From an uncultured Lachnospiraceae bacterium (lineage in GTDB: Bacteria; Bacillota; Clostridia; Lachnospirales; Lachnospiraceae): a stretch of DNA of 55,826 nt. Where the stretch lies: the NCBI GenBank assembly GCA_902774125.1, contig CACYHD010000004.1:1-55826 (forward strand), written 5' to 3'. Positions 5,901-32,804 of this stretch are shown piece after piece. How positions within the stretch are numbered: position 1 is the stretch's first letter; every line of letters starts with the position of its first letter. The notes under the pieces were generated by a model. The model saw nothing but the letters and a program-made list of their open reading frames with translations. It was not told where the DNA came from and made no database searches. Made by a program: the position numbers and the translations under genes.

Positions 5901-7738
5901 TTAAGGTTCTTGAGGGAACAAGAAACATTGCATCAGTCAAAAACAATGGTACATCAAGAATTATCGACTTAGATTCATTCTATGATGAAGACCACAACAT
6001 TGATCAGGCACAGGTTGCTTTGGACGGTGTAGTAGGAAGTGGCGAAGGTGCTGATGTTGCACTTAGAACACAGTCAGCACAGGATCCTGTAACAATGGTT
6101 ATTGACCTAGGCGCTAACTATGCTACAAATCAGATTGAAAAACTATTAATCGAATATGGTAACCCTAGAACATACGCAGCAGATACTAAAGTTTGGGTAG
6201 CTGAAAGATATTCAGATGACTACTTTGCTTTGGTTGCTGATGAGAAGGGCTACAAAGCTAAGAATGAACACGGTAACGTAAACTTTATCAACTTCGATAA
6301 GAGCGGTTACGGAATGAGTGGTATTAGATTCATTAAGATTCAAATTTCTGGTGGATCTAAAGCGTATGGATATGTTATCCACGAAATCGGTGTAATGCTT
6401 AACGTTGACGCAGCTGATGCAACAATTGCTGCTCCTAAGACAGAAGTTGAAATCCCAACTCTAGATAGCAGAGTATACACAGGCGAGACACTAACTGCAC
6501 AGATTCCTAATAACAGCCTATATACAGCTGTTGTTAACGAAGGCGGAGTAGATGCAGGTGAGTACTCAGTAACACTAAAACTTAAAGATTTTGACCACTA
6601 CTACTGGGCTGGTGATATTAAGGGATTGTCAGATGAGACAGAAGTATCATTTAATATTACTCAGGCAGAAAACGAGTGGTTCGAGACAGTTGATATTAAG
6701 GGATGGAAGTATGGCGAAGAGCCTAACAAGCCATCAGCAAGTGCTAAGTTTGGACAGGTAGTATATCACTATGGTAAGTCATTAGATGGAAGCTTCACAG
6801 CAGCTCCTCCAACAGATGCAGGTGACTACTACGTTAAAGCTTTCGTATCAGAGACACCTAACTTCAAGGGCATTTCATGCACTAAGGCATTCTCTGTAAC
6901 AAAGGGAGAGAAGGCAGCTCCAACAGATATCGAATCACGCGCTTCTACTATTGTAGATAATGCGGACGGTGCTATTTTTGGCGTAAGCACAAGCATGGAA
7001 TTCAGACCTGCAGATGCTGGTTCATACGCACCAATTTACAGTGATACAATTAGCAATATCAAATCAGGTCTTTACTATGTAAGATACAAAGAAACTAACA
7101 ATACATACGCTTCAGCTGACACTCCTGTTATGGTTGAGACAGGTAGAAAGCTTACAGTAACATATGCTGAGGGCGAGCATTATACTATTAGAAAACTTGA
7201 TGATTCTGACAGATATACATACGGAACACCAGCTAGATTCGAAGTAGTAATTCAGGACGGCTATCAGCAAGGCTTCAACTTCAAGGTAACTGCCAACGGC
7301 GAAATGCTTCAGCCGGAAGGAAACATTTATACAATTCCTGCTGTAAGATCTGAGACACTTGTTGAAGTTAGTGGAATCGAAGTTAAGCCACCAGTTACAA
7401 CAGTTGCTCCAACAACAGCACCTAAGGCACCTGGCAAAGCTACAATCAAGAAGATTGCAGCCAAAAAGAAATCAGCCAAGAAGCTTAAGGTAACTGTTAA
7501 GGCGGTAGCTGGCGCAACAGGTTACAGATGGGCAGTGTTCAAAACAAAGAAGAATGCTAAAAAGAACAAAAAGGCATTGTACAAGAAGAACACAGCAAAG
7601 AAGACATTTACTATCAATTCAGCTAAGATTAAGAACAAGAAGTCATTGTTCGTAAGAGTAAGAGCATACAAGGTAGTAAACGGCACTTACTTATATGGCC
7701 CATGGTCAGCAATCAAAAAGGTTAAGATCAAAAAATAA
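2951..7738 (+). CDS. Secreted F5/8C (discoidin-like) repeat protein with lysine-rich C-terminal domain (1,595 aa)
   Basis: Signal peptide at residues 1-32 (cleavage near VKA/DTV); start supported by GGGAGG just upstream. The body consists of two related halves of nearly 700 residues. Each has an F5/8C-like domain (about 35-200 and 725-890; NIALGK and NLALGK starts), an Fn3-like linker (PGDNQ-D/E), a second F5/8C-like domain (about 305-470 and 985-1150), and MBG/Ig-like repeats containing LKDF..YW and ITQAEN. A unique tail (about 1320-1480) precedes a PTTAP linker and the Lys-rich C-terminal domain (about 1490-1595) also found in three other proteins here. F5/8C domains usually bind carbohydrate, so a surface glycan-binding role is likely; no catalytic domain is visible. 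Monocistronic, with its own promoter and terminator. Confidence 0.85.
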   Translation: MKQVVRRIVTAVLSVAMIASSISFTPSVVKADTVDDLATARNIALGKDVTCYASKPDGDNTTADKVTDGSLTTQHFAIIDNTNNDWGKGGESYITIDLGDYYDASSIDEIWVSYKNSDANVTPINKSYKIDYSVNGTAFNTVAVAEKNVTELGEYHETIDDVSSVTGTVRYVRVTYPKTGGYGIQIREIAVLASTPVKVQVEECDNVASVAAQSNDVEKLTYSFVAGDNQDGYSYDAYLDGAKLVGENVKPGQEYTVNNVSMGTHYVVVVSKYNGNLSTGVKSNDVEVIDQATAEKQQFMSNKNIAYKGNNASAALISSSSFYNENYTLESSQLILDGDITHGEGADRAFRTASGEKTVEFVIDLGANYSKAQFDKVMIEYQNGNTFAANTKVYVSEISDADSFTLVADKEGYAVNNDDTYHVNTINLDMSQYGLGGVRYVKVELNNNACAYGYIIHEVGVLLNVATDDATIATAKNPIDSPVIASKAYTGSNLKADVPASDDYTVVSNNGGTAAGTYDVVLKLKDFNNNYWKANKGAGTDEVTVPFEITQAENAWTSDLTIQEWGRGETPNEPQVSAKFGSATFTYSDTEDGDFTETVPTMTGDHYVKATVPATDNYTGLTQVKKFHIGKGNYPDAPTLTVTNPEPGVALITISGLVGTDTANVYRDGRLVLAGVRNGTERITDLIRGTYTFTAEAVRGANISDKSEPVQTYVEGEYPLVNQMTDPAYNLALGKVVSVSQFVNEGSVTAINDGKFTNFAALSGSPEKEGWGVDQPCYFVIDLGDTYDVSTLEDVVVYYRNTGDKSITVEGRNFSVGYSSDGVHYNQVYITNSARYTDATAHNTVTSLRDCEGVARYIRVHYTKTPPYGMHVTEAGVIAPNAVKVDAPKCDDAAGVVVESTDYNVISYTIMPGDNQEDFLYNVYLDGDLSKPVALGVSAGETFEIKNVEAGTHTLTIVAVHDGAISDGINSDAVTVLDANTEYLKVLEGTRNIASVKNNGTSRIIDLDSFYDEDHNIDQAQVALDGVVGSGEGADVALRTQSAQDPVTMVIDLGANYATNQIEKLLIEYGNPRTYAADTKVWVAERYSDDYFALVADEKGYKAKNEHGNVNFINFDKSGYGMSGIRFIKIQISGGSKAYGYVIHEIGVMLNVDAADATIAAPKTEVEIPTLDSRVYTGETLTAQIPNNSLYTAVVNEGGVDAGEYSVTLKLKDFDHYYWAGDIKGLSDETEVSFNITQAENEWFETVDIKGWKYGEEPNKPSASAKFGQVVYHYGKSLDGSFTAAPPTDAGDYYVKAFVSETPNFKGISCTKAFSVTKGEKAAPTDIESRASTIVDNADGAIFGVSTSMEFRPADAGSYAPIYSDTISNIKSGLYYVRYKETNNTYASADTPVMVETGRKLTVTYAEGEHYTIRKLDDSDRYTYGTPARFEVVIQDGYQQGFNFKVTANGEMLQPEGNIYTIPAVRSETLVEVSGIEVKPPVTTVAPTTAPKAPGKATIKKIAAKKKSAKKLKVTVKAVAGATGYRWAVFKTKKNAKKNKKALYKKNTAKKTFTINSAKIKNKKSLFVRVRAYKVVNGTYLYGPWSAIKKVKIKK

Positions 7739-7951: not shown

Positions 7952-8542
7952 ATGAAAAGAGCTATTTTGATGTTGACCCTTGTTTTGCTTATGGGTCTTA
8001 CTTTTACAATTTATGCAGATGACGAAGAAAACCCAGGTGATATTGTAACAAATCCATGGGGTGAGTTGTTTACTGAGACACAGACGACTACACCGGACTT
8101 GCCTATTGAATCAGGAACAACACAGCCGGGAACAGAAACTACTCAGGCTTCAGGTGGCGAGACAGAATCAGTTGTTACAACAACAGACGCTAATCAGGTA
8201 GTAGAGGTAACTAATACATCTGACAGTGAATCTTTAGTTAAGCCGGGCAAGGTAAAGATTAAAAAAGCCAAGAAGGTTTCAGCTAAGAAGATTAAGATAA
8301 CACTTAAGAAGGTTAAAAACATTAAAGGCTACCAGGTAGCTGTTTACAAAAACAAGAAACAAGCCAAGAAGAATAAGAAGGCTCTTTACAAAAAATACAT
8401 TAAAAAGAATAAAACTAAGTTTACTATTTCTTCTAAGAAACTAAAAGGTAAGAAGACTTTGTTCGTAAGAGTTAGAGCTTACAAGAAACCTGCAGATAAG
8501 GCTATATATGGACAGTGGTCTAAGATTAAAAAGGTGAAATAA
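7952..8542 (+). CDS. Small secreted protein with PGD/NPW motif and lysine-rich C-terminal domain (196 aa)
   Basis: ATG at 7952 with GAGAGG upstream is chosen over an in-frame TTG at 7868, which lies in the promoter. Residues 1-22 are a Sec signal peptide (cleavage at IYA/DDEE). Immediately after it comes PGDIVTNPWGELF (residues 28-40), a motif shared with the proteins at 8564, 11897 and 19725. A Thr/Ser/Gln-rich linker (about 41-92) leads to the Lys-rich Fn3-like C-terminal domain (about 94-196) found in three larger neighbours. So it is a minimal version of the surface proteins: motif, flexible stalk, basic domain. Function unknown; it may display the motif at the cell surface (inference). 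Co-transcribed with the 56-aa gene 21 bp downstream. Confidence 0.8.
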   Translation: MKRAILMLTLVLLMGLTFTIYADDEENPGDIVTNPWGELFTETQTTTPDLPIESGTTQPGTETTQASGGETESVVTTTDANQVVEVTNTSDSESLVKPGKVKIKKAKKVSAKKIKITLKKVKNIKGYQVAVYKNKKQAKKNKKALYKKYIKKNKTKFTISSKKLKGKKTLFVRVRAYKKPADKAIYGQWSKIKKVK

Positions 8543-8563
8543 TCGCAAGTGCGAGGTGAAATT

Positions 8564-8734
8564 ATGAAAAAGTATGTTGATCCACAGTTAGAAACAATTA
8601 AGTTTGACGTTGAAAATGACGTTATGAACGGGGGCGATGGATATTCCCCAGGAGATGTCGGTTCAGATGAGTTTGGAGATCTTTTCCCATCTGATACAGA
8701 TTCTTCAAGTATGGTAAAACACTTTAATATTTAA
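8564..8734 (+). CDS. Small leader-like acidic peptide with GG and PGD motif (56 aa)
   Basis: ATG at 8564 preceded by GAGGTG; an upstream GTG at 8549 has no good ribosome site. The N-terminus (MKKYVDPQL...F, residues 1-14) and a GG at 23-24 match the layout of the peptide at 19725. After the GG comes PGDVGSDEFGDLF (residues 29-41), which aligns without gaps to PGDIVTNPWGELF of the adjacent gene product. The C-terminal part is rich in Asp and Ser (SDTDSSS), which could be phospho-acceptor sites for a CotH kinase (inference only). It lacks a hydrophobic signal peptide, so if exported it would need a GG-type peptidase exporter or another route; none is in this window. Followed by a strong terminator. 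Confidence 0.75.
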   Translation: MKKYVDPQLETIKFDVENDVMNGGDGYSPGDVGSDEFGDLFPSDTDSSSMVKHFNI

Positions 8735-8758
8735 GGGTAAGATTCGTACTCTATTGAG

Positions 8759-8784
8759 GGACTTTGGTGCGCCAAAGTCCTTTT
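8759..8784 (+). terminator. Intrinsic terminator after the small peptide gene
   Basis: Perfect nine-pair stem GGACTTTGG / CCAAAGTCC, TGCG loop, TTTT tail. Confidence 0.9.
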
Positions 8785-8820
8785 CGTTTGAAAAAATACA
8801 AGGGCAGTCGGTGTGGTTTT

Positions 8821-8850
8821 TTGAACTATAATAAAACAACCACTTACAAT
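8821..8850 (+). promoter_or_regulatory. Probable promoter of the 957-aa CotH gene
   Basis: TTGAAC (8821-8826), 18-bp spacer, TACAAT (8845-8850). An alternative TATAAT at 8827-8832 lacks a convincing -35. Confidence 0.45.
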
Positions 8851-8931
8851 GGAATAGTAATATATTACAATTAAAATTACCAACAGTTGCTGCATAGGCA
8901 ACACGGAATAATTGAATAGGAAGTATAAAAA

Positions 8932-11805
8932 ATGAAAAGGTTATTAAAGAAATTTTTGGCGACTGTTATGGCTACTGCAATAGCTGTAACAGGTTTTGGC
9001 GTTGATATGAAAACAGCGAGAGCTGATATAGAGGCAACGGTTAGTATAGTTGACAATGGCGACAATACTGTAAAAAACCAATTGATTGCAGATAGAGCGT
9101 CAATTAATGGAACAGTACTTGCCAACTATCTTCACTACGACGGCGTAGAAGTAGAAAGTACATCTACCAAGCAGTCTTGTGAAGATCTCAGAGACAAGAA
9201 ACTTGGCACAAGATGGGAAACGGAGTCTGCTGACAACCAGGATCTTGATATTAATCTTCACAACGTTTACAAAATCAAAGCGATCGGAATGTTTTGGGAA
9301 GATGCTTCGGCCAAGTCATACGTCGTTCAGGGATCAGTAGATGGTGTCAACTACACTGACATCAAAACTGTCGCTTCTGACTATCATCAGCGAACTGATG
9401 TGATTGTTTTTGCCGAGGAGCAGGAAATTCGTTATTTGAGATTGCACTGTATGACACGTACTACTCCGTACGGTTTTTCGATATATGAAATGGCAGTTTG
9501 GGGCCTTGATGATCCTAAGGAAATCATCCCGGATCCAAAGGTTTTTGGCAATCTCAAGGTTAGATCATATGCCCAGTACACTGGCAAGTATATGATTTAT
9601 TTTGACGAGGGCGAGAACGCGACTAAGTACAATGTTTATATTGACGGGGCCAAGTCTCCAATCAAGTCAATTAAAAAGCCTGGAGAGTATCTCACGAACA
9701 AAGATCTGGCTATTTTTGACGACGGCAGACACACTATGTCAGTTACATGTGTAACTACAGAAAATGAAACTACAGTGGAGTCAGAGGCACTTACTACAGA
9801 ATTTACCAAGGAACCTACGCGAGGCGATCATTCAGACATGCCTCAGGTTTATATTGAGGGCAAAAACATTAGCCAGGAATACCACACCAAAAACGACTTC
9901 GCAGTATCTGTTGTGGACAGCGATGGCGGAACAGACGGACTGGGCTACACAGGTGACGATGGCACGGTTAAGGATTCGGACGTTATTAAGCGTTTCAAGG
10001 ATTTTGCTGATGGGCTTTGTAACATGAAGGTTCGCGGCAACACAACAGCGGGCCAGCCTAAAAAAGGATACAATATCAAGCTTAGTTCCAAGTCAAGCTT
10101 GCTTGGAATGGACAAGGCCAAAAAGTGGTGCTTGTTAGCTAATGCTATGGATAAGTCTTTGGTTAGGGACTTTTTGTCATATAATTTTGCGCTAGAAAAT
10201 GGAGTTAAGTATGCATCCCAAAGTAGATATGTCGAGCTATACGTTAGCGGCAAGTATTTGGGAAGCTATCAGTTGTGCGAGGCTGTAGAGGCCAAAAAGG
10301 GCCGCGTGGACATCGATGCATACAACGCAGAGTCTAATGACATATTGCTAGAGATTGGAACACGTAATGAAGAAGGCGTGGACCACTTCACAACTGATGT
10401 GCTTAGAACAACATTTGACGTCAATGATCCGGAAAAGGGCGATGACCTAACTGATCAGGAAGTTGATGCCAAGATAGCAAGAGTGAAAAACTTTTTGAAT
10501 GACTTTGAAACTATGCTGCGCAATCACAAGTATGCTGATTTGGAGGCGTATATGGATGTGGATTCGTTCGTTGACTTCTATGTAGTTAATGAACTTTTCA
10601 AGAACCAGGATTTCAACTTTAGTTCCACAAGATTCCGCGTCGAGGGCGGCAAGGTTTATGCTGGGCCTATATGGGATCTGGATCTTTCAAGCGGCAACCT
10701 TAAGTCATCATATTACACAGATTATTATGTGAATGGCGACAGCACAAAAGGTTACAAGTGCAAGTCCATGAATTGGTACAAGGAACTGTTCAAGATACCT
10801 GAATTCGAACAGAAGGTCAAAGAAAAATACGAGGCTCTACAATATCGAATCCAGAGCTTGTATAGACAGGATTCGGTAGAAACATTGAGCATCAATTATG
10901 TAACAAACAGATACGGCAAGTCTTTCAACAGAAACTACGCCAGCCAGGACAACCTAGGTGCCGGATGGCCTATCAAGTATGATGATGGATATAGCTACGC
11001 AGCAGAATCTAATTGGAATAGTTGGACAGACACAATCGATTTCCTAAGAGATTGGCTAGAGCGCCGCAACACATGGCTTTGCACAGAATACGGCATAGAC
11101 ATGGAGGCTGCTTATGTTGCGTCAATGCCGAAGGAAGAAGAGACAACAACAGCCGAGCCAACAACAGAGGCAAAAACAACAGTTGCGCCAACAACGGAGG
11201 TAACAACAACAGTTGCGCTAACAACGGAGGTAACAACAACAGTTGCGCCAACATCAGAAGCAGTAACAGATTCAACATCTGCAGAACTAACATCAGAAGC
11301 AGCAACAGATTCAACATCTGCAGAACTAACATCAGAGGCGTTAACAGATGTAACGAAAGAGGCAGAGTCTGAAGTGCAGTCAACAGAGGCTGGCTCAGAG
11401 GTGCAGCCAACAGAAGCAGAATCCGAGATTCAGTCGACAACAGCAGAGGTGATAACTACAACAGCTAATCAGCCTGCAACTAGCAATGATACAGCAGCAA
11501 CAAAGCCTGCCAAGGTCAAAATTAATAAGATTACAAAGAAAAAATCAGCCAAGTCTATGACTATATCAATTCGCAAAGTTGCAGGAGTCAAAGGATATCA
11601 GGTTGCAGTATTCTCAACAGCCAAGGCAGCTAAGAAACTTAAAAAAGCGTTGTTTAAGAAGTTTGTCAAAAAGAATAGCGCTAAGCTTGTAGTAAAACAT
11701 AAGAAACTCAAAAACAAGAAGAAATTGTACGTGAGAGTGCGAGCTTACATCAAGCCGGGTCAAGTTATTTACGGCGCCTGGTCAGCAACCAAAAAAATTA
11801 AGTAG
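8932..11805 (+). CDS. Secreted CotH-family atypical kinase with F5/8C and lysine-rich domains (957 aa)
   Basis: Signal peptide 1-32. An F5/8C-like domain (about 53-190) is followed by an Fn3-like domain (about 203-293) and a CotH domain (about 300-727). CotH signatures seen: KVRGNTTAG near residue 366, KKWCLLANAMDKSLVRD, YVELYVSGKYLGSY, and GPIWDLDLSSGN near 580, whose W-D-x-D is the presumed metal-binding site. CotH proteins are Fam20C-like protein kinases known from Bacillus spore coats; here the signal peptide and wall-type modules imply an extracellular protein. A Thr/Glu/Ser linker built from 30- and 39-bp tandem repeats (about 733-857) and the Lys-rich domain (857-957) complete it. Lies between two PGD/NPW-motif genes, suggesting a functional link. 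Kinase activity and substrate are unproven. Confidence 0.85.
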   Translation: MKRLLKKFLATVMATAIAVTGFGVDMKTARADIEATVSIVDNGDNTVKNQLIADRASINGTVLANYLHYDGVEVESTSTKQSCEDLRDKKLGTRWETESADNQDLDINLHNVYKIKAIGMFWEDASAKSYVVQGSVDGVNYTDIKTVASDYHQRTDVIVFAEEQEIRYLRLHCMTRTTPYGFSIYEMAVWGLDDPKEIIPDPKVFGNLKVRSYAQYTGKYMIYFDEGENATKYNVYIDGAKSPIKSIKKPGEYLTNKDLAIFDDGRHTMSVTCVTTENETTVESEALTTEFTKEPTRGDHSDMPQVYIEGKNISQEYHTKNDFAVSVVDSDGGTDGLGYTGDDGTVKDSDVIKRFKDFADGLCNMKVRGNTTAGQPKKGYNIKLSSKSSLLGMDKAKKWCLLANAMDKSLVRDFLSYNFALENGVKYASQSRYVELYVSGKYLGSYQLCEAVEAKKGRVDIDAYNAESNDILLEIGTRNEEGVDHFTTDVLRTTFDVNDPEKGDDLTDQEVDAKIARVKNFLNDFETMLRNHKYADLEAYMDVDSFVDFYVVNELFKNQDFNFSSTRFRVEGGKVYAGPIWDLDLSSGNLKSSYYTDYYVNGDSTKGYKCKSMNWYKELFKIPEFEQKVKEKYEALQYRIQSLYRQDSVETLSINYVTNRYGKSFNRNYASQDNLGAGWPIKYDDGYSYAAESNWNSWTDTIDFLRDWLERRNTWLCTEYGIDMEAAYVASMPKEEETTTAEPTTEAKTTVAPTTEVTTTVALTTEVTTTVAPTSEAVTDSTSAELTSEAATDSTSAELTSEALTDVTKEAESEVQSTEAGSEVQPTEAESEIQSTTAEVITTTANQPATSNDTAATKPAKVKINKITKKKSAKSMTISIRKVAGVKGYQVAVFSTAKAAKKLKKALFKKFVKKNSAKLVVKHKKLKNKKKLYVRVRAYIKPGQVIYGAWSATKKIK
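11160..11345 (+). repeat. In-frame tandem repeats encoding the TTE/TSE linker
   Basis: Two to three copies of a 30-bp unit (ACAACAGTTGCGC...) followed by 39-bp units (GATTCAACATCTGCAGAACT...). All are multiples of three and keep the reading frame, so the stalk length of the CotH protein can vary by repeat number. Confidence 0.75.
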
Positions 11806-11826
11806 GCTTCAAAAAATTATAAAAAC

Positions 11827-11855
11827 TTGTTTCTATCAATATATAGTGTTAACAT
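11827..11855 (+). promoter_or_regulatory. Extended -10 promoter of the 285-aa gene
   Basis: TTGTTT (11827-11832), 17-bp spacer, TAACAT (11850-11855) preceded by TGT. Same type as those at 2881 and 7868. No terminator is seen between the CotH gene and this promoter. Confidence 0.55.
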
Positions 11856-11896
11856 ATTTTTATAACAATGAACGGGCTTATGATTAGGAGACAGTT

Positions 11897-12754
11897 ATGA
11901 AAACAAAAGTTTTAATAATAGCACTAACAATAACAGCAATGTTTTCTGTTTTTGTCATGGCTGATGATAATTCCGGGGATAACCCTGGTGATGTTGTTGT
12001 TAATCCATGGGAAAGTGTTTTTCAAACAACAGAGGTTCAGTCCACAACTGAGGAAGTGACAACTCAGGAAGAGACTACAGAGCCACCGGCCACATCTGCC
12101 AGAGTCAAGGTTACAATAGATGACAAGGATTACAGTGTGGCAAGAGATGGCCAATTAGTTTTGTCCAATGATACTAACTACGGATTCATTATGAATGGCA
12201 AGTATTACAAGAAGGGCGAGACGGTCACAGTAAGCGAAAACACAGTTATTTCTACTGTAGATCAGATTGATGTGGATATGTCACAAAACGGTGCGGCAAT
12301 CTGCCTAGACGGACGTGACGGTATCAAGTTCAAGTGCAATATGGTCATCAAAAACAAACTTGGCCAGGACATAACTAAGGAAGCGCTTAAGTGTAGTGGT
12401 TTTTCTTGGGGAATGTTGATTGTTCCTAACAGCAATAGAGTTGATGACAATCTAACAGCCATCAAGACCAAAAAACTAGGCGGAGTGAACTTGCTCAACT
12501 CCAATGTGAGAGATGACGATTCATTCTACTGCGGTATAATAAATGTGAAGCCTAACAATTACAAACGAGAGTACATCGCAAGAGGTTATATCAAGTTGAC
12601 TTACGGCAATGGTTTATCTCAGTATGTTTATGCTTCTAGAACATCTTTACCAAGGTCAATTGTTGAAGTTGCTGACACGATTGCACAGAATGGATACGTT
12701 GGACTCAATCCTAACGAAAAAACAATAGTAGACGATTACAGAACTGCAGAATAA
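11897..12754 (+). CDS. Secreted protein with PGD/NPW motif and the shared surface C-terminal domain (285 aa)
   Basis: Sec signal peptide 1-22 (cleavage at VMA/DDNS), start with AGGAG upstream. PGDVVVNPWESVF at residues 30-42 places the shared motif at the mature N-terminus, as in the gene at 7952. A TTEE-rich linker (about 45-72) is followed by a compact domain (about 75-285) containing GIKFKCNM, YIARGYIKLTYGNGLSQYVYAS and RSIVEVAD. These landmarks recur at the C-termini of the 2,173- and 2,473-aa proteins (FRT...Y.R.Y...G...YS...R.SVAEIAD), so this appears to be the same domain standing almost alone. Function unknown. It has no Lys-rich domain. Flanked by two CotH genes; own promoter and a strong terminator. 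Confidence 0.8.
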   Translation: MKTKVLIIALTITAMFSVFVMADDNSGDNPGDVVVNPWESVFQTTEVQSTTEEVTTQEETTEPPATSARVKVTIDDKDYSVARDGQLVLSNDTNYGFIMNGKYYKKGETVTVSENTVISTVDQIDVDMSQNGAAICLDGRDGIKFKCNMVIKNKLGQDITKEALKCSGFSWGMLIVPNSNRVDDNLTAIKTKKLGGVNLLNSNVRDDDSFYCGIINVKPNNYKREYIARGYIKLTYGNGLSQYVYASRTSLPRSIVEVADTIAQNGYVGLNPNEKTIVDDYRTAE

Positions 12755-12772
12755 CGACTGCAATAAACAATA

Positions 12773-12834
12773 AAAAAGTGGTACAACATGTTATGCTTTC
12801 AATCCGAAAGAATAACAAGATGTGCCACTTTTTT
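12773..12834 (+). terminator. Intrinsic terminator after the 285-aa gene
   Basis: Arms AAAAAGTGG.ACA and TGTGCCACTTTTT with further inner pairing (CTTTC/GAAAG), ending in TTTTTT. The A-run on the 5' side would make it bidirectional. Confidence 0.85.
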
Positions 12835-12835
12835 G

Positions 12836-13162
12836 GTGCACAAAAAAAGAATAAGTGCAAGTAATTATTTATTTTTTAGACAAAATTAGACATATGTAAG
12901 TGGGCATATTTTTTTACGGTATAGATGTGTATACAAAGTGATGATAAAGTGATGAAATTGTTGTAAAAAAAATACCTGAATGTTAAAATTTAAAGTGTAT
13001 AATAGCATCTTAAAGTGCGTCTGAATAAGGTTTTTTACTATATATTACTTATCTAATAGATGCTAATAATTGGTAAGGGAAGACGTGATAAATAGATGAT
13101 CGCGATGACGGATAAATTGAACAGTAACTAGAAAACGTGACACAAATGGAAGGTGAAAAAAG
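12836..13162 (+). other. Intergenic region upstream of the 2,173-aa gene
   Basis: AT-rich spacer of 327 bp with no gene. A TATAAT at 12998-13003 is a likely -10 box without a convincing -35; the implied leader is about 150 nt. The gene's ribosome site is GGAAGG just before 13163. No clear riboswitch was recognised. Confidence 0.4.
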
Positions 13163-16100
13163 ATGAAGAAGAGACTTAAGAAATTAGTGGCTTTTATTAG
13201 TGCGATAGTTATGGTTGTAACTAGTCTTGTTTATGTGCCTAGTACAACGGTTAAGGCTGCGGAATTAACAATTGATGGTGTTACTTACACAGTGGGAACA
13301 ATTTCGGGTGATAATGATTCTTTTGTCAATAATCATGTTGGTGGTGCAACTATTTCCGATGCCTGTTTTGGGTTTGCATGGGCTGATAATGTAATGGGAG
13401 CACATACGGCTGCTGTAACTGTTAAGCAAAACGATGTTCAAGTAAAGGACCTAGGGAATAAGGACAATGGTGGGTTTGTGTATATATCAGAACTTAGTAC
13501 ATTGTCTAATGGTAGCTATACTATTGTTTATTCATTTGCAACAAAGACAGTGAATATTGAATTAACAATAAGTGGTGCTGGAGGAACAACTACTACACAA
13601 GCAGCGAGTCAAACAGAAAGTAAAAGTACAACACAAGCAGCATCTGAAAGTGTATCAGAAGAAGCTGAACTTAATTGGCAGGAAAATGCATACTTAACTG
13701 CTTATTTTGGTGAGGGAACTCAATATGCAATAGTGACTAATTATGAAGGTCAAGATGATAACAAATTCCCGGGTGGTAATTTCACTTTTGCGGCTGATCA
13801 TATTAACTGTACAACAGGAGCTCATGGTAATTCTCAGACTTTAACTTTTAATAATACGGTTATTAATTCTTCAACAGAATCTTATGCTGTTGGCAATAAC
13901 GTTACATATGATAAGTTTGTTTGTGGCGAGAATACTCTGCGTTTTGTGGGACACTACACAGCGGGTGGTTCAGATTTGAATGTTGATGCATCTGTTATTA
14001 TTAAGGTTCCTTCTCAAGCTCTTAATTTTTCTATTAATGATTATTCATCTTATACAGGGAAGTATGTAACTAAGTTTGATAATGCATCAGGCATTTCTAA
14101 CTATGAAGTTTTTGTTGATGGAAATGCAACAGGAATAACTGTAAAAGGCAGTGGTGATTACTTTACAGTATCCGAGTTAAAAACAGCAGGGATTTCTAAT
14201 GGTGACCACACGGTTACACTTAAGTGCGTTCTTTCGGAAGGAAACTACAGTATAGCTTCTAAGCAATCAGCTACAATAAATGTTCCTGCAACAGCAGGCA
14301 ACTTTGGTGATATTGCTCAAATTTACATTCAGACTGATGACACATCTCTTACACCAACGCCTCAAGAAGGTAAGAGGGTTATTGATAAGGATGGCGTTGG
14401 CAAGCAGCAAGCAGTTATTACCGTTGTGGACAAAGATGGCGGATCATATTCAGATATTTTTGAAGACGCTACAAAAACAACAGTAAAGGTTAGAGGTAAT
14501 TCTACTGCAGGAGCTGTAAAAAAAGCATACAACATTACTTTTGCTAAGGGTAAAGATTTGTTTGGGTTAGATGGTTCTTCATCCCCAGCCAAGAAGTGGA
14601 GTTTGTTAGCAAATGCTTTTGATAAATCTCTTATTAGAAATTACTTGGGATTTAACATAGCACATCAAATGTGGTCTGACAATGCCACACCGGATTACAA
14701 TAGTAATTGCAAGTTTATTGACTTGTATTTTAATGGTGTATACTTGGGTAACTATGTGCTGATTGAGTCAGTAGAAACAGGCGAAGGAAGAGTAAATATT
14801 CCAGCACAAGATGTTGCTAATCATGCTTCGCATGTATCTGAAGCACTTCTTGAATTGGAAGAAATACACGCTATTGGCCAAGAGGCTCATTTTACGACAA
14901 CATTATACGGACAGACATTTATTTTTGGATCTCCAGAGACTGTTGGAGATTATGATGATAATACAGAGTTGTTTAATGAAAAGGTCACGGCCGTACAGAA
15001 TTTATTTAATAATTTTGAAACGGATTTGAAGAATAAGAATTGGACCAAAATTCAGGCAGATATTGACATTGAATCATTTGTTAAATTTTATGTAATTAGC
15101 GAAATAATGACTACTAAGGATTTTAATCAAAGTTCTACTAGATTCTATGTTCATAATGACAAAATATATGGCGGCCCGCTTTGGGACATGGACTATTCTA
15201 GTGACAATAACTATGATATGCCATCATATAAGCTTGAATATCAGAGAAGAATGGATTGGTTTGATCATTTGATGGAGATACCTCAGTTCAAGGCATTAGT
15301 GGTATCTGAATACGATGATATAAATGAGTATATCGCTTCTTTGTATGCTGACGATGGTGTGATTGATGGAATTATAGATGAAATATCAAATTCTGCAACA
15401 AGAAACTATTTGCCTAAAGAAAATAATGGCGCCGGATGGTCTATTGATACAATGGATACAGGCGATGGATATGGATATCTAAAATATGTGGCTGACGGAA
15501 AAGCAGCTGCAGGAAAAGTTGCATACACAAGCTATAATGGTGAAAATGATCCTAATAGTGCAATTCAGCAGGTTAAAGATTATTTCAAAAACAGAAAAGA
15601 TGGACTTGATGCTATTTGGTTAAATGATGAGGAACCTGAAACAACAGCAACTAGTAATTGGGTGCCAGTATCTTTTCAGGGTTCTTCTACAATTGATGCA
15701 ACAGGAAGAGAATGGAAGATGGAATTGAATAGTTTTCATGGATTGGGTGGAGGCAACGAATATTATCAGTTGGCAAATAACTTCGATCCTTCAGTTCCAG
15801 CATCTGTTACATATGGAGATAAAGCAAATTCAACTATCTCAGGACCTATTTTATCAATGACAGTTAGAGGACAGACTGGAAAAACACTTACTTCACTGAA
15901 AGTTGGCGATGCAACTCTCACAGCTGATACAGATTATTATTATACAACTACTGATGATGTAATATACATAAAGCAGAGTGCGTTCTCATTAGGAAGAAAT
16001 ACATTAACGTTTGATTTTAATGGTAGTGAGTATAATGTGTTGTTTGAAGTAAGTAATGTTGAAACAACAACAGCAGCACCTACAACAACAGCGGCAGAAA

Positions 16101-19100
16101 AATGGTCTACAATTGGTTCTGGTTACGATGGCCGTTTGTGGAAAATTAATAATACGGCTCACCAAGCTATTAATCAAAATGCTTATCGTCAATTAGTAAA
16201 AGAAGGAAGCCAAGCTACATATGGCGATAAAGGTAATGCTGATATTAACACTAATTTTATTGCAATAGCTTTTACAAGTGAAATTACAGCTAATATTACA
16301 AGTGTAAAAATAGGAGACACAACTCTGGTTAGAGGAACTGACTACTGTACTAATACAGAAAATAATGATGTAATATATATTAAACAAGATTCTTTCCCTG
16401 AAGGAATGACTACATTAACTGTTTCTTCGGGAGGAAATACATATAGTATTGGATTTGATGTGGAAGATGCAATTGACGTGATTGATCCATTAGATGATGA
16501 GGATGTTCCTGATAATCTAGAATGGATTGACTTCGGTGGCGCTGATAGTCATAACTGGCAGTTTTGCTATCCTTCTGCATATGCAGAATTTAAGCAGGTG
16601 GGTGATAATTGTACCAATAATCAATTATATTTGCCACAGAAGAGTGTCGGAGCACCATATAAAACAGTTACTATTAACGGTAATGACTATACTAATTCAG
16701 GAGCTGCATTCGTTTCGATACAACAAAACGTCTTGGTTGAGAACGGCGTTTATAGAGTTGATGTAACGGACGCTAATAATAATAGTTTTGTAATTTATAT
16801 CAAAAAAGATAAAGCTGCAGATTACAAGCCTACTGGATTGGCTGCGTCAGTATCTAATGATATAGCCAATATTAGTTGGGAGCCTTCTAGTGACGCTATT
16901 GCAGCTGCTGCAACATTTACAGTTAAAATTGATGATACTGTAATATTATCTGATAGCACAATGCATTCTGCTACCTATGATATTTCATCAATGTCCAAAG
17001 GAACGCATACTGTAACATTAACAACTTATGTTGACGGACTTGAAGTTGATACACAAACGACAACTCTTAACTACTCTGATTATGTTATTAACTCATTTAA
17101 AGCAACAGGTGATACAAAGCTTGCTTGGGAAAAGTATCGAGCAGATAAGTTAGATTGGAATATAACTTCTGCATCTCCTATAGTTGGATATGCTTACTAT
17201 GTTGATGATAAGTTGTATGAGACTGAGGCAACAACAGAAACAACACATACATACATGCTACCAGCATATGCTATAGCACAAATCTATTCACAGAATGATC
17301 CAACTAACGGAATTGATGCTTTTGGCCAGGCCAAATCATCCGGAAGCCATACTGTAAAGGTTGTTTCATTTACAAGTGATCTTAATAATGCACCAGCAAC
17401 ATATACAAGCGATTTGGATGGTAAAGTTGTTGGAATAGATTCTTTCGAACAAGATGTAAGTTATATTTTTGGTAATCAGTCTCTATGGAACAAAACAAGT
17501 GCTTCCAGTCCATGGAACTTTACTATTACTGATGGATCTAAGATGAAAATCAATTATCGTAGTGATGGTTCAGTAAAAGTATCTGATATGAAAGTTAACA
17601 AAGATGCCGATGAACCACAATGGCAGCTCAAGGCAGCTATATATGATAGACATCTTCCGGTAGCCGAAGACGGCAACAAAGTTAATGTTAAGTTTGATGT
17701 TAGAATCGGTGATGAAGAATTTGTTGGAAAGCAGTTGTATATTAAGATTTGTTCAGATGAAGTAGATGATAACTATAGTTATTATGGTGAAGAGACACCT
17801 GCGACAAGTGATGTTACATATGATCAAGAATATTACACATTTGAGAGTGATGGTAGAGGTGGTTCTGTAATCCATTATTCAATTACATTCGAACCTCATG
17901 TTGATGCTCCGCACGGTGATCAATATGACTTGTTGTTCGGAATCGGCGAGTTAGAGGGTGCAGACCTTGAACTTACTGTTCCGGAGGTAACGGATGTATA
18001 CAAGGTTACTAAAGCTATAGCATCAGCCAACTTGACAGATGCACCAACACTACCTGGAACAATTACAATTAACTGGAATTCTGACGTTCCTGAGGATTTG
18101 AAGGAAGATTATTATTACGTAACTAAGATTGATGGCAAGATAGTTTCCGATGATGCTCAGTTGAGTGAAACACACACAGGATATGAAGCCGATTCGACAC
18201 ATACAGTGACTGTTGAAAGCTGGTACAAAATTACTGGAACTATGACTGGTTCGGCCGAAACAGAGGTAACTATACCTAATGTTCAGCGACCTAATATAGT
18301 TGCTGCTTCAATTAACATTGATAACAGTAGTAGCAGATACGTAGGTGATACTATTCCTATCAAGGTTATTGTAGCTAATGTAGGTGATGCTGCCTGTACA
18401 GATGATTTTGTAGTTAAGCTAGAAGCTCAGCCATATGGCAAGCAAGCAGTGGCTGTAGGCACAGCACAAACAATTACAGTTGATTTGCCAAAACCAGCAG
18501 ATCCTACTAATCCGTTAGCAGATGCTGTTGAACTTACATTTAATTATCCAATAACAGATGCAGGTAATACAACGTTTATAGCAACGGTGGATGTTAATGA
18601 TTCGGTTACTGAGTCAACAGAAACTGATAATGTCACAATGATTAGATATATGTTCTATGACAAACCTGCTAATAATGAATACTGCGATGTAGTAGGATTC
18701 CAGCTTAACGCTTTAACAGCGGAAGAAAGCAATCCTTCATACTATGGACCATCATTTAGAACTATGGCTAGAATTAGTTATGATGACAAGAATAATCATA
18801 CAATTGGTGGCGAGACAGTAACAGAATATGGAATGGTATTCGCACTTACTGACAAGGCGCAATCAGTTGATAAGGATAACATGAGAATCGATTCTGATGA
18901 TGAGTATGTGGCTCATCTAGCTGCTAATACAAAAATCGATTATAGTGGTTGGACAACAAGAGGAGGAAAATTCACTCTAGATAATAGTAGCTTCTATGGA
19001 CTTACTATTAAAAACTTGTTCTACGACGAAAAAGAGTTAACTAAGAATTACTCATTCAGAGCCTACTATAAACTGGGCGAAGAAGTAGTATATTCGAACA

Positions 19101-19684
19101 ATATTTACACAGTCAATATGGAAGAGATTGCCAATGACTTGTATCAGAACCAAAAAATGTACTCTAAGAAGTCACATGAGTTCTTATACAATGCAATTCT
19201 TAACCCTGTTGCTGCTAAGAAAAATTATCTCAATATCGGAAGAACAATGATAAATATGTTCAGAAAGAAAGACAGTTCTATAACACAAAATTCACCAGAA
19301 TATATATATACTAACATGGTATACAAGGATATTCAGGGATATGGATTATGTAAGCAAGGATATTGTTACGGTAATGAAGATGAAGAAAAGGTTCCTAATA
19401 AAGATTTGAGATTTACTCATTTGGGACCACTAAATGCTAATAATGATGGTGATAATACAAACGATATGCACTTGTTTGAAAGCAGACGACTAGTTGAGCA
19501 TAAAGAAGGTGATAAGACAGGAGTTTACTTAGGAATGCTCAATGATTTGACACATACTAATTATTCATCTATATACGATTGGATTTATAACGAAATTCCA
19601 GAAAATGGATTCGCTAGAAGACACGCATATAGTTGGGAAGGACATCAATACAATAGCGACGATGCTATTGAGGACATCGACTAA
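13163..19684 (+). CDS. Giant secreted CotH-family protein with X2-like, Fn3 and CARDB modules (2,173 aa)
   Basis: Signal peptide 1-32 (VKA/AEL). Order of modules: Ig-like (about 35-139), Ser/Thr linker, X2-like (170-290), Fn3-like (290-375), CotH (380-826), three X2-like repeats (about 830-963, 975-1100, 1113-1213; DGxLTxGTDY and VIYIKQ signatures), two Fn3-like domains (1219-1420), a carbohydrate-binding-like segment (1426-1612), Fn3-like (1616-1709), CARDB-like (1709-1829), and the common C-terminal domain (1832-2020) plus a unique tail. CotH signatures are KVRGNSTAG near 440, KKWSLLANAFDKSLIRN, and GGPLWDMDYSS near 673. It lacks the Lys-rich domain of the first CotH protein. First gene of an apparent three-gene operon with the peptide at 19725 (40 bp gap) and the giant protein at 19919. 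Probably extracellular; activity unproven. Confidence 0.85.
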   Translation: MKKRLKKLVAFISAIVMVVTSLVYVPSTTVKAAELTIDGVTYTVGTISGDNDSFVNNHVGGATISDACFGFAWADNVMGAHTAAVTVKQNDVQVKDLGNKDNGGFVYISELSTLSNGSYTIVYSFATKTVNIELTISGAGGTTTTQAASQTESKSTTQAASESVSEEAELNWQENAYLTAYFGEGTQYAIVTNYEGQDDNKFPGGNFTFAADHINCTTGAHGNSQTLTFNNTVINSSTESYAVGNNVTYDKFVCGENTLRFVGHYTAGGSDLNVDASVIIKVPSQALNFSINDYSSYTGKYVTKFDNASGISNYEVFVDGNATGITVKGSGDYFTVSELKTAGISNGDHTVTLKCVLSEGNYSIASKQSATINVPATAGNFGDIAQIYIQTDDTSLTPTPQEGKRVIDKDGVGKQQAVITVVDKDGGSYSDIFEDATKTTVKVRGNSTAGAVKKAYNITFAKGKDLFGLDGSSSPAKKWSLLANAFDKSLIRNYLGFNIAHQMWSDNATPDYNSNCKFIDLYFNGVYLGNYVLIESVETGEGRVNIPAQDVANHASHVSEALLELEEIHAIGQEAHFTTTLYGQTFIFGSPETVGDYDDNTELFNEKVTAVQNLFNNFETDLKNKNWTKIQADIDIESFVKFYVISEIMTTKDFNQSSTRFYVHNDKIYGGPLWDMDYSSDNNYDMPSYKLEYQRRMDWFDHLMEIPQFKALVVSEYDDINEYIASLYADDGVIDGIIDEISNSATRNYLPKENNGAGWSIDTMDTGDGYGYLKYVADGKAAAGKVAYTSYNGENDPNSAIQQVKDYFKNRKDGLDAIWLNDEEPETTATSNWVPVSFQGSSTIDATGREWKMELNSFHGLGGGNEYYQLANNFDPSVPASVTYGDKANSTISGPILSMTVRGQTGKTLTSLKVGDATLTADTDYYYTTTDDVIYIKQSAFSLGRNTLTFDFNGSEYNVLFEVSNVETTTAAPTTTAAEKWSTIGSGYDGRLWKINNTAHQAINQNAYRQLVKEGSQATYGDKGNADINTNFIAIAFTSEITANITSVKIGDTTLVRGTDYCTNTENNDVIYIKQDSFPEGMTTLTVSSGGNTYSIGFDVEDAIDVIDPLDDEDVPDNLEWIDFGGADSHNWQFCYPSAYAEFKQVGDNCTNNQLYLPQKSVGAPYKTVTINGNDYTNSGAAFVSIQQNVLVENGVYRVDVTDANNNSFVIYIKKDKAADYKPTGLAASVSNDIANISWEPSSDAIAAAATFTVKIDDTVILSDSTMHSATYDISSMSKGTHTVTLTTYVDGLEVDTQTTTLNYSDYVINSFKATGDTKLAWEKYRADKLDWNITSASPIVGYAYYVDDKLYETEATTETTHTYMLPAYAIAQIYSQNDPTNGIDAFGQAKSSGSHTVKVVSFTSDLNNAPATYTSDLDGKVVGIDSFEQDVSYIFGNQSLWNKTSASSPWNFTITDGSKMKINYRSDGSVKVSDMKVNKDADEPQWQLKAAIYDRHLPVAEDGNKVNVKFDVRIGDEEFVGKQLYIKICSDEVDDNYSYYGEETPATSDVTYDQEYYTFESDGRGGSVIHYSITFEPHVDAPHGDQYDLLFGIGELEGADLELTVPEVTDVYKVTKAIASANLTDAPTLPGTITINWNSDVPEDLKEDYYYVTKIDGKIVSDDAQLSETHTGYEADSTHTVTVESWYKITGTMTGSAETEVTIPNVQRPNIVAASINIDNSSSRYVGDTIPIKVIVANVGDAACTDDFVVKLEAQPYGKQAVAVGTAQTITVDLPKPADPTNPLADAVELTFNYPITDAGNTTFIATVDVNDSVTESTETDNVTMIRYMFYDKPANNEYCDVVGFQLNALTAEESNPSYYGPSFRTMARISYDDKNNHTIGGETVTEYGMVFALTDKAQSVDKDNMRIDSDDEYVAHLAANTKIDYSGWTTRGGKFTLDNSSFYGLTIKNLFYDEKELTKNYSFRAYYKLGEEVVYSNNIYTVNMEEIANDLYQNQKMYSKKSHEFLYNAILNPVAAKKNYLNIGRTMINMFRKKDSSITQNSPEYIYTNMVYKDIQGYGLCKQGYCYGNEDEEKVPNKDLRFTHLGPLNANNDGDNTNDMHLFESRRLVEHKEGDKTGVYLGMLNDLTHTNYSSIYDWIYNEIPENGFARRHAYSWEGHQYNSDDAIEDID

Positions 19685-19724
19685 AAAGGTGCCTAACAAA
19701 AGACTAAGACTGGAGGAGACTAAA

Positions 19725-19901
19725 ATGAAGAAATTATATAAGACACCTGAATTAGATATTACGAGGTTTGAAATAGACAAGGAACTATTGGGTTCAGGTG
19801 GACATGATCCAGGTAATATTACAGAAAATCCATGGTCAAGTGAATCAACGCCTGAAGTAACAACGGACTTCGCCGATCTTCCATGGGATGATGACTTTTA
19901 G
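19725..19901 (+). CDS. Small leader-like peptide with GG and PGN/NPW motif (58 aa)
   Basis: ATG at 19725, seven bases after GGAGGA. N-terminus MKKLYKTPEL...F parallels the peptide at 8564 (MKK, Y, P, L, F in equivalent positions). GG at 25-26 is followed by HDPGNITENPW (residues 27-37), the motif also found after the signal peptides of the 7952 and 11897 products. The remainder is acidic with S/T (TPEVTTD) and ends FADLPWDDDF, a second W-containing acidic block. No hydrophobic segment. Sits between two giant surface genes with gaps of 40 and 17 bp, so it is certainly co-transcribed with the CotH gene. Possible roles are CotH substrate, signalling peptide or a RiPP-like precursor; none is proven and no modifying enzyme or exporter is in the window. 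Confidence 0.75.
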   Translation: MKKLYKTPELDITRFEIDKELLGSGGHDPGNITENPWSSESTPEVTTDFADLPWDDDF

Positions 19902-19918: not shown

Positions 19919-22900
19919 ATGAAGAAGACTATAAAGAAGATTATATCGATTACACTAGCTATTGCCATGATAGTAAGCTCTTTGACTTATTATCATTCGA
20001 CAGATATCAAAGCAGATGCACCTGATTATTCAGGACTTACATATGCTGCTATAGCAAATAATCAGAATGCTGAATTTGATCAAAAATTATATAACGCTGA
20101 AGTGGCAGTTGCTTCAGGTACTGTTAATTTTAATGTGAAACAGTTCCAGGGAGTTGGTTTTGGAGATTTATATATGGCCTTGGGCGGTAAATACCCACAG
20201 TCAGCCACTCTTAATGGTGTTTCTACTACTGTGCGCTTTGCTGCAGATCAGTTATTTATTGATAATGCTGCAAGTGCTTTGACGAATTATGAATATAATG
20301 TAATAGATGTTACGTTTAATGATTCATCTACAGCAAAAATTATTATTCATTTGCCTTCAAATCAGGGCGCAGGTACTTATGACGGATCTGGTGGTGAAAC
20401 AACTACTGAAACAGAATCGGTTTCTGAATCCGAATCACAATTAACTCCATCATCTGATCCATATGCAACTCAGATTTGGAAGACAGCATCACAAGCTGCC
20501 TATAGAGTTTGCATTGTGGGAAAGAATACTACACAAGAGTTTAACGGTACGTTTGAAGTTCAAGGAGAAAATCTATATATAGCTGGCTCAGCACAAATAA
20601 TTGCTGCAAATTACAAATCAGCGACACTTAATGGAAATGATTTGACTATTTGGGAAGGTGCATTTGTTAGAGTGCCTATCGCACAGTTGACAAATAATTT
20701 TGACAACGAATTAGTTATAGTGGATAGAAATGATAATTCACATACAGTTATCATTAGAGCGGGAAGACCTCCATATGAAGAAGTTGATCCGATTGATCCA
20801 GAGACTATAACTATTACACCTAATAATACACAAATAACTGATAAACATAAAATATGGGCTAATTGGACGAACCCGGAAGGTACATATAGGGCTTATGCTT
20901 ATATAGGCTCAGTCGCAGAAGCTAATGGTGCTTATTATAGTGCAGCAGGTTGGGATTTTAATACTCAGGCTGCTCAGCCTATGACAGGCGTTGACAATGT
21001 TGATAGAACACATGGCGATTCGACGCTTTTCCAACCTCTAGAAACTTATACCTTTATCGTAGTTGCCTATAATGTTTTTGGTGATCTTATAGGACAGGGT
21101 AGTGTTGATATTACTATTCCTGAATATAATGAAGAAGAGGAAAAGGCAGCAGAAGCAAAGAAAAAAATAAATACTGCAGAAAACTTGGCGTTAAGACAAA
21201 CACCTTTTGTATCTGCAGGTGATACAAGAGAGCAGGGAAAAGCTGCAATTGTTGATGGTAATGCGGGAAGTAGATGGCAGGCTTATCCTCTCGGTAGTGG
21301 AGCAAACCAGGATCCAGCGCCTTATTTTGGTGTTGATTTGGGAGAGAGAAAAACACTTGGTAGTGTTCTTGTGTGCTGGGAGGCAAGTAATGCTAGAGCT
21401 TATTATGTTCAACTGTCTGATGATGGTGAAAATTATCATACTGTCGCTACTGTTTCTGGACTTGATAACAATAAGGCTGTTGATAGAGTGTCAGAGTTTG
21501 CTTCAGAGCAGGCAAGATATGTCAAAATCGTTCCTTATGAGTATAGTGATAACGCTCGATCATATGGCGTTTCGACTTATGAATTAGCTGTTTTTGCTGG
21601 AGAAGAATCATATACGCAAGTATCTGATAATACATGGGTGGATGTTGGTATATTCAACATATATAGTTCTTGGACTACTAGAAAGTCAGCTTACCTGGGT
21701 ACTGGAACTGAAGATGATATGCATGTTAAATTTATAGGTGCACATACAGCAGAATGGGATTCACAATTTGGTATTGATGTACCTAATTTAACTTCTGGTG
21801 TTGAATATAGTTATTCGATATCATTTACATCTAATAAAGCAGGAACTATGTATATGCAAGTTCCTGGATCAGCTGGTGTGACTCGTTTAGATGATGTTGC
21901 TGTAGTTGCTGGTGATAATACTATTACAGGAACTTTTACAGCTGGTACAAATCCGGCTCATGGTCAGATTATGTTCTTCCCAGAAGGAATGGCAGATGGA
22001 ACTATTTTTAGTTTTTCAGATGTGACTGTTGAAGTAACACCTCAGAAAGCAGCGCCTTCTGGATTTACAGTAGCGTATACTAATGACCAAGGTGATATAG
22101 TATTTAACTGGACAGCGTCTCAAGATTACACTACAGCAAATCTATATGTAGATGATAATTTATATGCGGGCGGACCTATTACAAATGGTCAAGTGATAAA
22201 TGTTGTAGCATTTGGTCATGCTGAGCATACATATAAGATTGAAGGAATTACTGAAGATTCCTATAGAGTGACAGAACGTACTGCTGGTGTTACATTAGGA
22301 ATGGTTCCTCAAAAAGAAGCACCTGAGTTTACGGCAACATACACTAATAATAACGAAGATGTTCTTATTAATTGGAGTGCAGAAAGCGCAATTACTTCAG
22401 CAAACTTATATGTAGATGGTGTTGCATACGAGGATAATCCTATAGATAGAGGAGATACTATTTCTGTTTCTGATATTGGAGAGGGAATTCATTACTTCTC
22501 AATTGTTGGTAAAACATCTGATATATATGGCATTACTGAACAGAGTGAAAATGTATATTTGTATGATTATGACGCGTCTCTCACATATCAAGGAAATAAA
22601 ACTGGTGGATTGTTCCCAGATAGTAGGGATGGTGTTGGAAATAATTATAGTAGATTTCATGATACTTCTGCTTCGGCGTCAATATCTAATAACACTGCTG
22701 GAAATGCCATCGATACAACAGCTAATTCAATGTGGAGTTCGGGAGGACACCAAGGATTAGATAATCCACAGTTCATATGTGTTGATTTTGGAAAAGTCAG
22801 ACCTGTCAGTGAAATTGATGTTTGGTGGGAAGGTGCTAATGCACGTGTGTATAAAATTCAAACATCAAATGACAATGAAAATTGGGTTGATGTTGCATAC

Positions 22901-32170: not shown

Positions 32171-32226
32171 ATATGAGTTTGTGGAATGAAGTCCGTAAAT
32201 TGACATCCTAAGATCAGTTGCAGAAA

Positions 32227-32793: not shown

Positions 32794-32804
32794 GCGAAGT
32801 AACA

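Follow-up and report, generated by a model that had tools for sequence, protein, structure and literature searches.

The small peptides described here have their closest published counterpart in the linear polyphosphorylated peptides (LPP), a family of ribosomally synthesised and post-translationally modified peptides (RiPPs) of Bacillota that depend on a RiPP recognition element (RRE) and were described in May 2026 (Popov et al. 2026, PMC13381572). According to the available part of that paper, LPP precursors are small, with a YxxP leader, a conserved start and a variable end; the YxxP is needed for RRE binding, a SipW-like peptidase cuts the leader and a kinase phosphorylates the core, the role of the products being given by the authors as unknown. 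YxxP is also listed as a known RRE recognition motif in the accessible text of PMC12710340. The subject of this work is a 55,826 nt stretch of DNA (hereafter the window; contig CACYHD010000004.1 of assembly GCA_902774125.1) from an uncultured Lachnospiraceae bacterium, in which a short box, originally read as PGD-x3-NPW, is shared by two Sec-type proteins (A and C) and two small peptides with an LPP-like leader (B and D). The window is the whole of contig C4 of a draft genome (G000; 1.9 Mb, 86 contigs, 92.7 % complete), and all genes and domains of the window located below lie on its forward strand. The leader type and its enzymes are already known from LPP.

As in LPP, to the extent that the available text describes it, G000 encodes a discrete PqqD-type RRE, an HprK-like kinase, an archaeal-type signal peptidase, an NTP transferase and an MsbA-like exporter, and both B and D have a YxxPx[hydrophobic] leader with a conserved Phe behind it. 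They depart from the consensus given there in the spacing from Tyr to Phe (10 rather than 13, counted by eye) and in having no clear Ser at the reported position. At the end of the leader, where LPP has F-E-T, the F of B and D is followed by D or E (by eye). A Ser stands shortly ahead of the tag in the four D-type peptides and in few of the B-type ones (by eye). Unlike LPP, the B and D genes are unclustered with biosynthetic genes in this draft genome, and their ends repeat a tag of Sec-exported proteins, a sharing not reported in the available part of PMC13381572. No described case of a RiPP-type precursor ending in a tag shared with surface proteins was found in the open-access literature, a body of work that leaves most subscription papers outside. 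Among the literature matches listed, nothing concerned an NPW motif of this kind or a CotH-linked docking system in Lachnospiraceae, the one 'NPW motif' match being unrelated (CD8beta).

Lasso peptides of Bacillota present a further parallel, in that a discrete RRE recognises the leader and the paeninodin-like kind comes with HprK-like kinase and nucleotidyltransferase genes; paeninodin-like leaders are WxxP and other Bacillota lasso leaders mostly YxxP, as far as the accessible text of PMC13381572 shows, and rumen Lachnospiraceae lasso precursors are listed in the part of PMC7533575 available. Inspection of the cassettes read and of the window by eye, with no family search behind it, showed neither a macrolactam cyclase nor a B2 peptidase. 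On the side of the exoproteins the nearest likeness is to the cellulosome: many share a C-terminal module (the IRF domain defined below, with 35–41 IRF_eva matches in each of genomes G004, G007, G008 and G010), and few surface proteins carry a partner element that is sometimes repeated. In contrast to the cellulosome, with its folded cohesin, a short linear tag is proposed here on the anchor side, and the exoproteins scanned gave no dockerin or cohesin match in Pfam (no genome-wide search was made). What supports docking of a cellulosome-like kind is genetic linkage and class matching.

A box shared by surface-type proteins and small peptides

Protein A (196 aa; 7952..8542) carries the tag PGDIVTNPWGELF at 8033..8071, from residue 28 onward, with an independent E-value (iE) of 1.3e-11 against a profile that includes A's own copy. 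Protein C (285 aa; 11897..12754) has PGDVVVNPWESVF at 11984..12022, from residue 30, and peptide D (58 aa; 19725..19901), preceded by a ribosome-binding-like GGAGGA at 19712-19717, has PGNITENPW at 19809..19835, from residue 29, followed by a second DLPW box near its C-terminus. Peptide B (56 aa; 8564..8734), with a ribosome-binding-like GAGGTGA at 8553-8559, holds the degenerate copy PGDVGSDEFGDLF (8648..8686; residue 29 onward), which lacks NPW. The frames and positions of all four segments are those given by the first-pass annotation, an account made from the sequence of the window alone; its observation of a motif common to the four is confirmed, with G-[DN]-[IV]-x-x-N-P-W in A, C and D and, as a qualification, the degenerate copy in B. 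The membership of B is secure because its orthologues in G002, G003, G005, G009, G013, G014 and G018 keep NPW. The box comprises 12 residues, G-[DNQE]-[IV]-x-x-N-P-[WF]-x-x-[LYM]-F, and one copy in G000 (L070) reads HPW. An alignment of 28 copies, which were collected via the box itself, has the consensus DxxGDIxxNPWxxLFT, in which G, N and P are invariant and neither Ser nor Thr is conserved. A second short box, T-x-x-D-L-P-[WFI], is seen behind the NPW box in several display proteins and D-type peptides, including A, D and relatives.

Chance or low complexity as the origin of the box was rejected on pattern counts against reversed controls and on genus-wide profile matches. Searched at the DNA level, PG[DN]xxx[ND]PW has three matches in the whole G000 genome, all of them within the window, and occurs in six of 41 genomes (its own included), all from one genus, the reversed control giving 0 in both searches. 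Across 392 genomes of the order, GD[IV]xxNPW was present in three of the four genus members and in nine of 388 genomes outside the genus, as against four of 388 for the reversed control; outside the genus its frequency is near chance. At six of the ten places involved there, the motif falls in an open reading frame (ORF) of ≥30 aa, and by eye none of these six looks exported; the remaining four places lack such an ORF. A scan of a species-genome collection with [ED][NHD]PG[DN][IV][VI]xNP returned 22 stretches, three of which encode relatives. The box is real and, at the sensitivity used, confined to one genus. A PDB profile search with the tag gave a single match (E 2.2), which was disregarded, and no relatives of protein A were found among viral contigs. 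An EF-hand or dockerin-like reading of D-x-D-G-D was dropped, as the acidic positions vary across copies by eye.

Within the genus the box is widespread. At E ≤1 the tag profile matches 23 of 24 genomes, G016 having no match and that in G020 containing in-frame stops, and at E <0.01 there are 57 places in 31 clusters and 22 genomes. Stretches covering all 57 places, with ORFs counted at iE <0.05, contain 56 tag ORFs in 22 of the 24 genomes: 44 are Sec-type, as assigned by a hydrophobicity window at the N-terminus, 10 are small YxxP peptides and two are truncated by the end of a contig. Across the regions read, the tag is found on Sec-type and YxxP products only, which bears out the earlier idea of one short epitope behind two kinds of N-terminus. 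Peptide B and the G018 peptide score under the iE 0.05 cut; with both included, tag-bearing YxxP peptides number 12 in 10 genomes. The position of the box relative to the N-terminus is also consistent, since it lies 16–28 residues behind the most hydrophobic stretch in 37 of the 44 Sec-type ORFs. The seven exceptions are L067, L115, L116 and L117 (in all four of which a second box was the one scored), L121, the multi-copy L059 and L114 (an internal copy). Homologues lacking the 13 residues were not the outcome observed. The extent first assigned to the motif, four neighbouring products, proved too narrow, as it is genus-wide, occurs on Ig arrays and in tandem, and is one of several tag pairs.

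Bodies behind the box differ, comprising a basic fn3 domain, an IRF-type beta domain (as in C), Ig arrays (L067 and L116, those scanned among L067 and L115-L117) and the repeat protein L059, and are otherwise unrelated. In A, a signal peptide, the tag and a T/E-rich linker precede a basic fn3-like C-terminal domain (8246..8539) that is common to many exoproteins of the genus and may bind the cell wall. An AlphaFold2 model of A places most of this C-terminal half above 90 in pLDDT, with Foldseek matches to fn3 at probability 1.00, and has low pLDDT over the tag and linker. Protein C similarly consists of a signal peptide, tag and T/E linker, ahead of a beta domain (12257..12751) named IRF_C-type in this analysis, which has no Pfam family at E ≤0.05; its AlphaFold2 model, built on a two-sequence alignment, is of low confidence (mean pLDDT 56), and Foldseek found no PDB match to it at E ≤0.001. 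L059:3328-4974 (G017:C77) encodes a 548-aa exported protein with six scored NPW tags, more visible by eye, and TTxQ-rich linkers between them, and is the best scaffold candidate of the set.

The leader of the small peptides

The second type of N-terminus had been taken for a double-glycine leader. Like peptides of that kind, which are processed by C39 peptidases, B and D have a GG ahead of the motif; unlike them, GG is missing from eight of ten orthologues of B and D, and a strong C39 match exists in only one of 24 genomes (a 731-aa frame in G023). Nine further genomes have weaker C39 matches, G000 among them, where a 338-aa frame (E 9.7e-8) is above the cut-off but short for a peptidase/ABC fusion. 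The double-glycine leader was rejected on these grounds. YxxP peptides instead start near MKK-x-Y-x-x-P-x-x-x-x-x-x-F, and a leader model trained solely on PqqD-adjacent peptides, when run on 6111 small segments, gave E=0.0028 for B and E=0.097 for D, the first unrelated segment following at E=0.46. Nine of the 12 tag-bearing YxxP peptides beat that value, those of G014 (2.1), G018 (3.6) and G005 (28) being the remainder. By leader homology, then, the second leader is a YxxP leader.

Genes for PqqD (RRE) proteins are present in all 24 genus genomes versus three of 14 control genomes. Several adjoin an HprK/ScmC-like kinase, an archaeal-type signal peptidase and other YxxP peptides, sometimes with an NTP_transf_5 protein or MsbA-like ABC exporter. 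In G000, contigs C6 and C42 together hold an RRE, a ScmC/HprK-like kinase, an archaeal-type (SipW-type) signal peptidase, an NTP transferase and an MsbA-like ABC protein, of which the kinase, peptidase and ABC matches score under the curated cut-offs of NCBIfam. As no PqqD gene is near B or D, the two are orphan LPP members at most.

Ratios of non-synonymous to synonymous substitution (dN/dS) for D are 0.24-0.30 against three orthologues (dS >1), and D-type peptides overall range over 0.08-0.30. Computable B-type pairs span 0.09-0.75, mostly with dS >1, and the three highest involve the window's own degenerate B. Across the family, YxxP peptides at E ≤0.5 occur in nine of 70 genomes (G000 included), several of the matches being weak. 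In another genus of the family (L127), a 93-aa YxxP peptide adjoins genes that by eye are HprK-like, signal-peptidase-like and radical SAM/SPASM-like.

Exoprotein domains and a possible docking role

Tag loci mapped are mostly exoprotein islands, with CotH, F5/8C, GH16 and GH81 proteins, and GH94 and GH17 genes beside some. Many of these exoproteins end in a C-terminal beta domain to which the name IRF is given here, with sub-types IRF_eva, IRF_pqq and IRF_C; IRF_eva and IRF_pqq are joined by hhalign at 98 %, and searches with the IRF_eva domain found nothing similar in Pfam, in NCBIfam or among PDB sequences. Large exoproteins of the fetched loci end either in a basic fn3 domain (40) or in an IRF domain (49), with both together in none of 89, and the two likewise never occur in one protein among 93 in the tag stretches. 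This exclusivity suggests that there are two alternative modes of surface retention. IRF proteins include GH18, GH5, GH81 and GH16 enzymes and CBM5/12, and of seven scanned among the 20 exoproteins with C-terminal IRF domains in L182-L191, five are glycoside hydrolases (GH18, GH5, GH81; chitinase and beta-1,3-glucanase families).

Peptide genes and IRF genes are linked. Of the 49 IRF proteins, 36 have a YxxP peptide no more than 1 kb away, versus six of the 40 basic-fn3 proteins (Fisher 3.8e-8), a comparison of classes within loci fetched mostly for YxxP or tag hits, giving no genome-wide rate, and one that counts the window gene at 13163 as peptide-less although D begins 41 nt behind it. Conversely, for 43 of the 47 distinct YxxP peptides above the score cut, an IRF protein is encoded on the same strand at a distance of up to 1.5 kb; the four without one are B, those of G002 and G013, and a peptide located where a contig starts. 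The class of the peptide core also matches that of the neighbouring domain, with NPW beside IRF_eva, GWTGLY beside IRF_C, and GFGPLIG or DDIxDL beside IRF_pqq in 28 of the 30 peptides that belong to one of these three named core classes and have an IRF neighbour, although peptides within a core class are related and the 28 are thus non-independent. Thirteen YxxP peptides with other cores adjoin IRF_eva (8) or IRF_pqq (5). YxxP peptides ending in GWTGLY/F adjoin IRF_C proteins in L078, L079, L080 and L081, and a proB-like gene lies downstream of them in L078, L079 and L081, as it does downstream of the window's island.

Presence and absence of tag and domain agree across the genus. IRF_eva occurs in 21 of 24 genomes, those without it being G016, G020 and G018 (59 % complete); the tag is missing solely in G016 and G020, an agreement with a chance of 3/276 (calculated by hand) that depends on these two tag-negative genomes. 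The G018 contig ends within the exoprotein that follows the peptide, the visible part of which is 43 % identical to an IRF_eva protein of G003.

Tag sharing between peptides and surface proteins extends to other sequences. At PqqD-cassette loci, two small peptides have different ends, and both ends recur in an adjoining small transmembrane protein or lipoprotein that has a low-complexity stalk, one of them internally and the other C-terminally, for example GFGPLIG in a peptide and GFGPLIDG in the neighbouring protein. The two partners change together from locus to locus, as in WGPLE/WGPLE (L109), FGPII/FGPII (L108), YGDLIG/YGELFG (L106, whose peptide has YxxA instead of YxxP) and GEDNTEPDWNDW/GEDNTDEGYIDW (L162), and in G417, from another genus, DEDGWTxIIVKP and EYELPFIP are similarly shared between peptide and protein. 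Nine loci were compared, two of them in another genus, with L107, L151 and L158 left out as close relatives of L105 with the same pattern; in eight of the nine, the end of the peptide recurs in the adjoining membrane protein. For the C-terminal tags of these nine, only four of 362,880 pairings score as high as the true one (itself included); the figure for the internal tags of six loci is 10 of 720 permutations, and against shuffled linker ends eight loci beat at least 496 of 500.

A docking role is the simplest account that uses all of these observations, and it is put forward tentatively that the box may be a surface docking tag recognised by the IRF domains of exoproteins. Sec-exported display proteins such as A, C and relatives would present the tag at the outer tip of a disordered stalk rich in T, E and P, which at its opposite end would join a basic fn3 domain, an Ig array or a beta domain of another kind. 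In B and D the tag follows a YxxP leader of the type bound by PqqD-type RRE proteins, and the two peptides would probably be phosphorylated, cleaved and exported by LPP-type machinery encoded elsewhere in the genome. The C-terminal IRF_eva domain of large exoproteins without basic fn3 (CotH, F5/8C, GH16, GH18, GH81) would recognise the tag. Display proteins attached to the wall would thereby keep the IRF exoproteins on the cell surface, and the peptide, once processed, could act as a free tag capping, competing for or maturing the same site. These data hint that the tag helps to hold sugar-degrading proteins together outside the cell. The complete scheme, a tag/catcher assembly in which the IRF domains recognise tags supplied both on anchored stalks and as free LPP-type peptides, is more doubtful. 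If it is true, LPP RiPPs would serve to mature, cap or release enzyme complexes at the surface, and the NPW box of the window would be one of a family of locus-specific tags in Lachnospiraceae; an LPP-type leader on peptides that repeat a surface-protein tag, adjoining exoproteins of which several are predicted to degrade glucan or chitin, offers at least a concrete role to consider. A docking system unlike dockerin/cohesin is suggested, and a C-terminal domain unrecognised by the libraries used would gain a name.

Several observations weigh against this docking role. An IRF gene is absent from 21 of 34 tag-ORF stretches and present in 13 (the stretches being 4 to 20 kb, or the window); at these many loci, any partner would need to be encoded in another part of the genome, which lowers confidence in docking. 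B and the G002 and G013 peptides have fn3-type neighbours only. YxxP peptides are few in the four genomes with 35–41 IRF_eva matches (G004, G007, G008, G010), and none lies beside the 20 IRF proteins in ten stretches from the first three of these. Tag and domain classes are mismatched in two display proteins, L051:9472-10179 and L065:9653-10273, which combine an NPW tag with a C-terminal IRF_pqq-type domain, and IRF_C is only weakly joined to the other sub-types (by hhalign, with a probability of 34 % for IRF_eva and of 0.3 % for IRF_pqq). The low-confidence model of C does not place the tag in a docked position on the beta domain. The PqqD places of G000 are on C6 and C42, and none is on contig C4 with B and D. 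With regard to the other tag pairs, the tag of L124 (another genus) is not shared by its linker protein, and the GWTGLY peptides and other IRF_eva-linked peptides tested have no neighbouring exported protein that repeats the peptide end. The way in which loci were fetched for the Fisher test and the reliance of the absence pattern on two genomes count on the same side.

The main rival to docking is enzyme–substrate recognition, in which one kinase, protease or transferase would recognise the box in order to modify or process its carriers, with peptides and surface proteins as two classes of substrate. Kinase, NTP-transferase and peptidase genes adjoin related YxxP peptides, linker proteins repeat peptide ends and the box mostly follows soon after the signal peptide, all of which would fit; however, the LPP kinase, RRE and leader peptidase are described in the available part of PMC13381572 as acting on the precursor before the exporter, whereas Sec proteins would be outside, the invariant residues G, N and P come without a conserved Ser or Thr, and tandem and Ig-tip copies resemble binding sites, which leaves this explanation unlikely. 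Less likely again is a secreted signal or competitor, whereby free B and D or shed peptides would be sensed by the cell or its neighbours and the anchored copy would serve as store or decoy. Small peptides with a leader-type start, hydrophobic-acidic ends and core classes that vary by locus could suit such a role, but tandem and Ig-array display is ill-suited to a pheromone, and 13 tag-locus maps inspected by eye contain mainly exoproteins and carbohydrate enzymes, no receptor search having been made.

A relic, that is a short segment exchanged by recombination between signal-peptide proteins and peptides and now without function, would account for a segment so short, limited to one genus and degenerate in B. 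It is very improbable given the purifying selection on the peptides (the D-type dN/dS values above, mostly at high dS), the retention of the box on differing bodies, albeit in copies gathered via the box, and the covariation of independent tag pairs with other sequences. The link to CotH loci proposed as a check in the first-pass annotation is present, with CotH within 12 kb of 12 of the 31 tag clusters where 1.33 are expected, and might make the box a substrate or regulator of CotH kinases. That the box has no conserved Ser, that G016 has CotH and no tag, and that tag clusters G012:C4, G015:C8 and G017:C77 have no CotH match on the same contig make this very improbable. As the partner of the tag, CotH was rejected: it is linked, but the box contains no Ser, and the distribution of CotH across genomes agrees less well with that of the tag than IRF_eva does.

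Gene order and further features of the window

The exoprotein island of the window includes, upstream of A, an exported F5/8C protein (2951..7738) that ends in basic fn3. Between B and C lies an exported CotH protein with an F5/8C domain (8932..11805), also with basic fn3 at its end, and behind C an exported CotH/CARDB protein (13163..19684) with an IRF_eva domain at ~18683-19228. Peptide D starts 41 nt behind this IRF gene and ends 18 nt ahead of the next, which encodes an exported F5/8C protein (19919..27340) with a C-terminal IRF_eva domain at 26675-27310. The source organism is related to common gut species. Away from the island, window positions 32147-32812 and 46802-47086 contain imperfect short repeats with similar-looking units, open in several frames and on both strands (from the ORF list, by eye), which look like intergenic arrays rather than genes.

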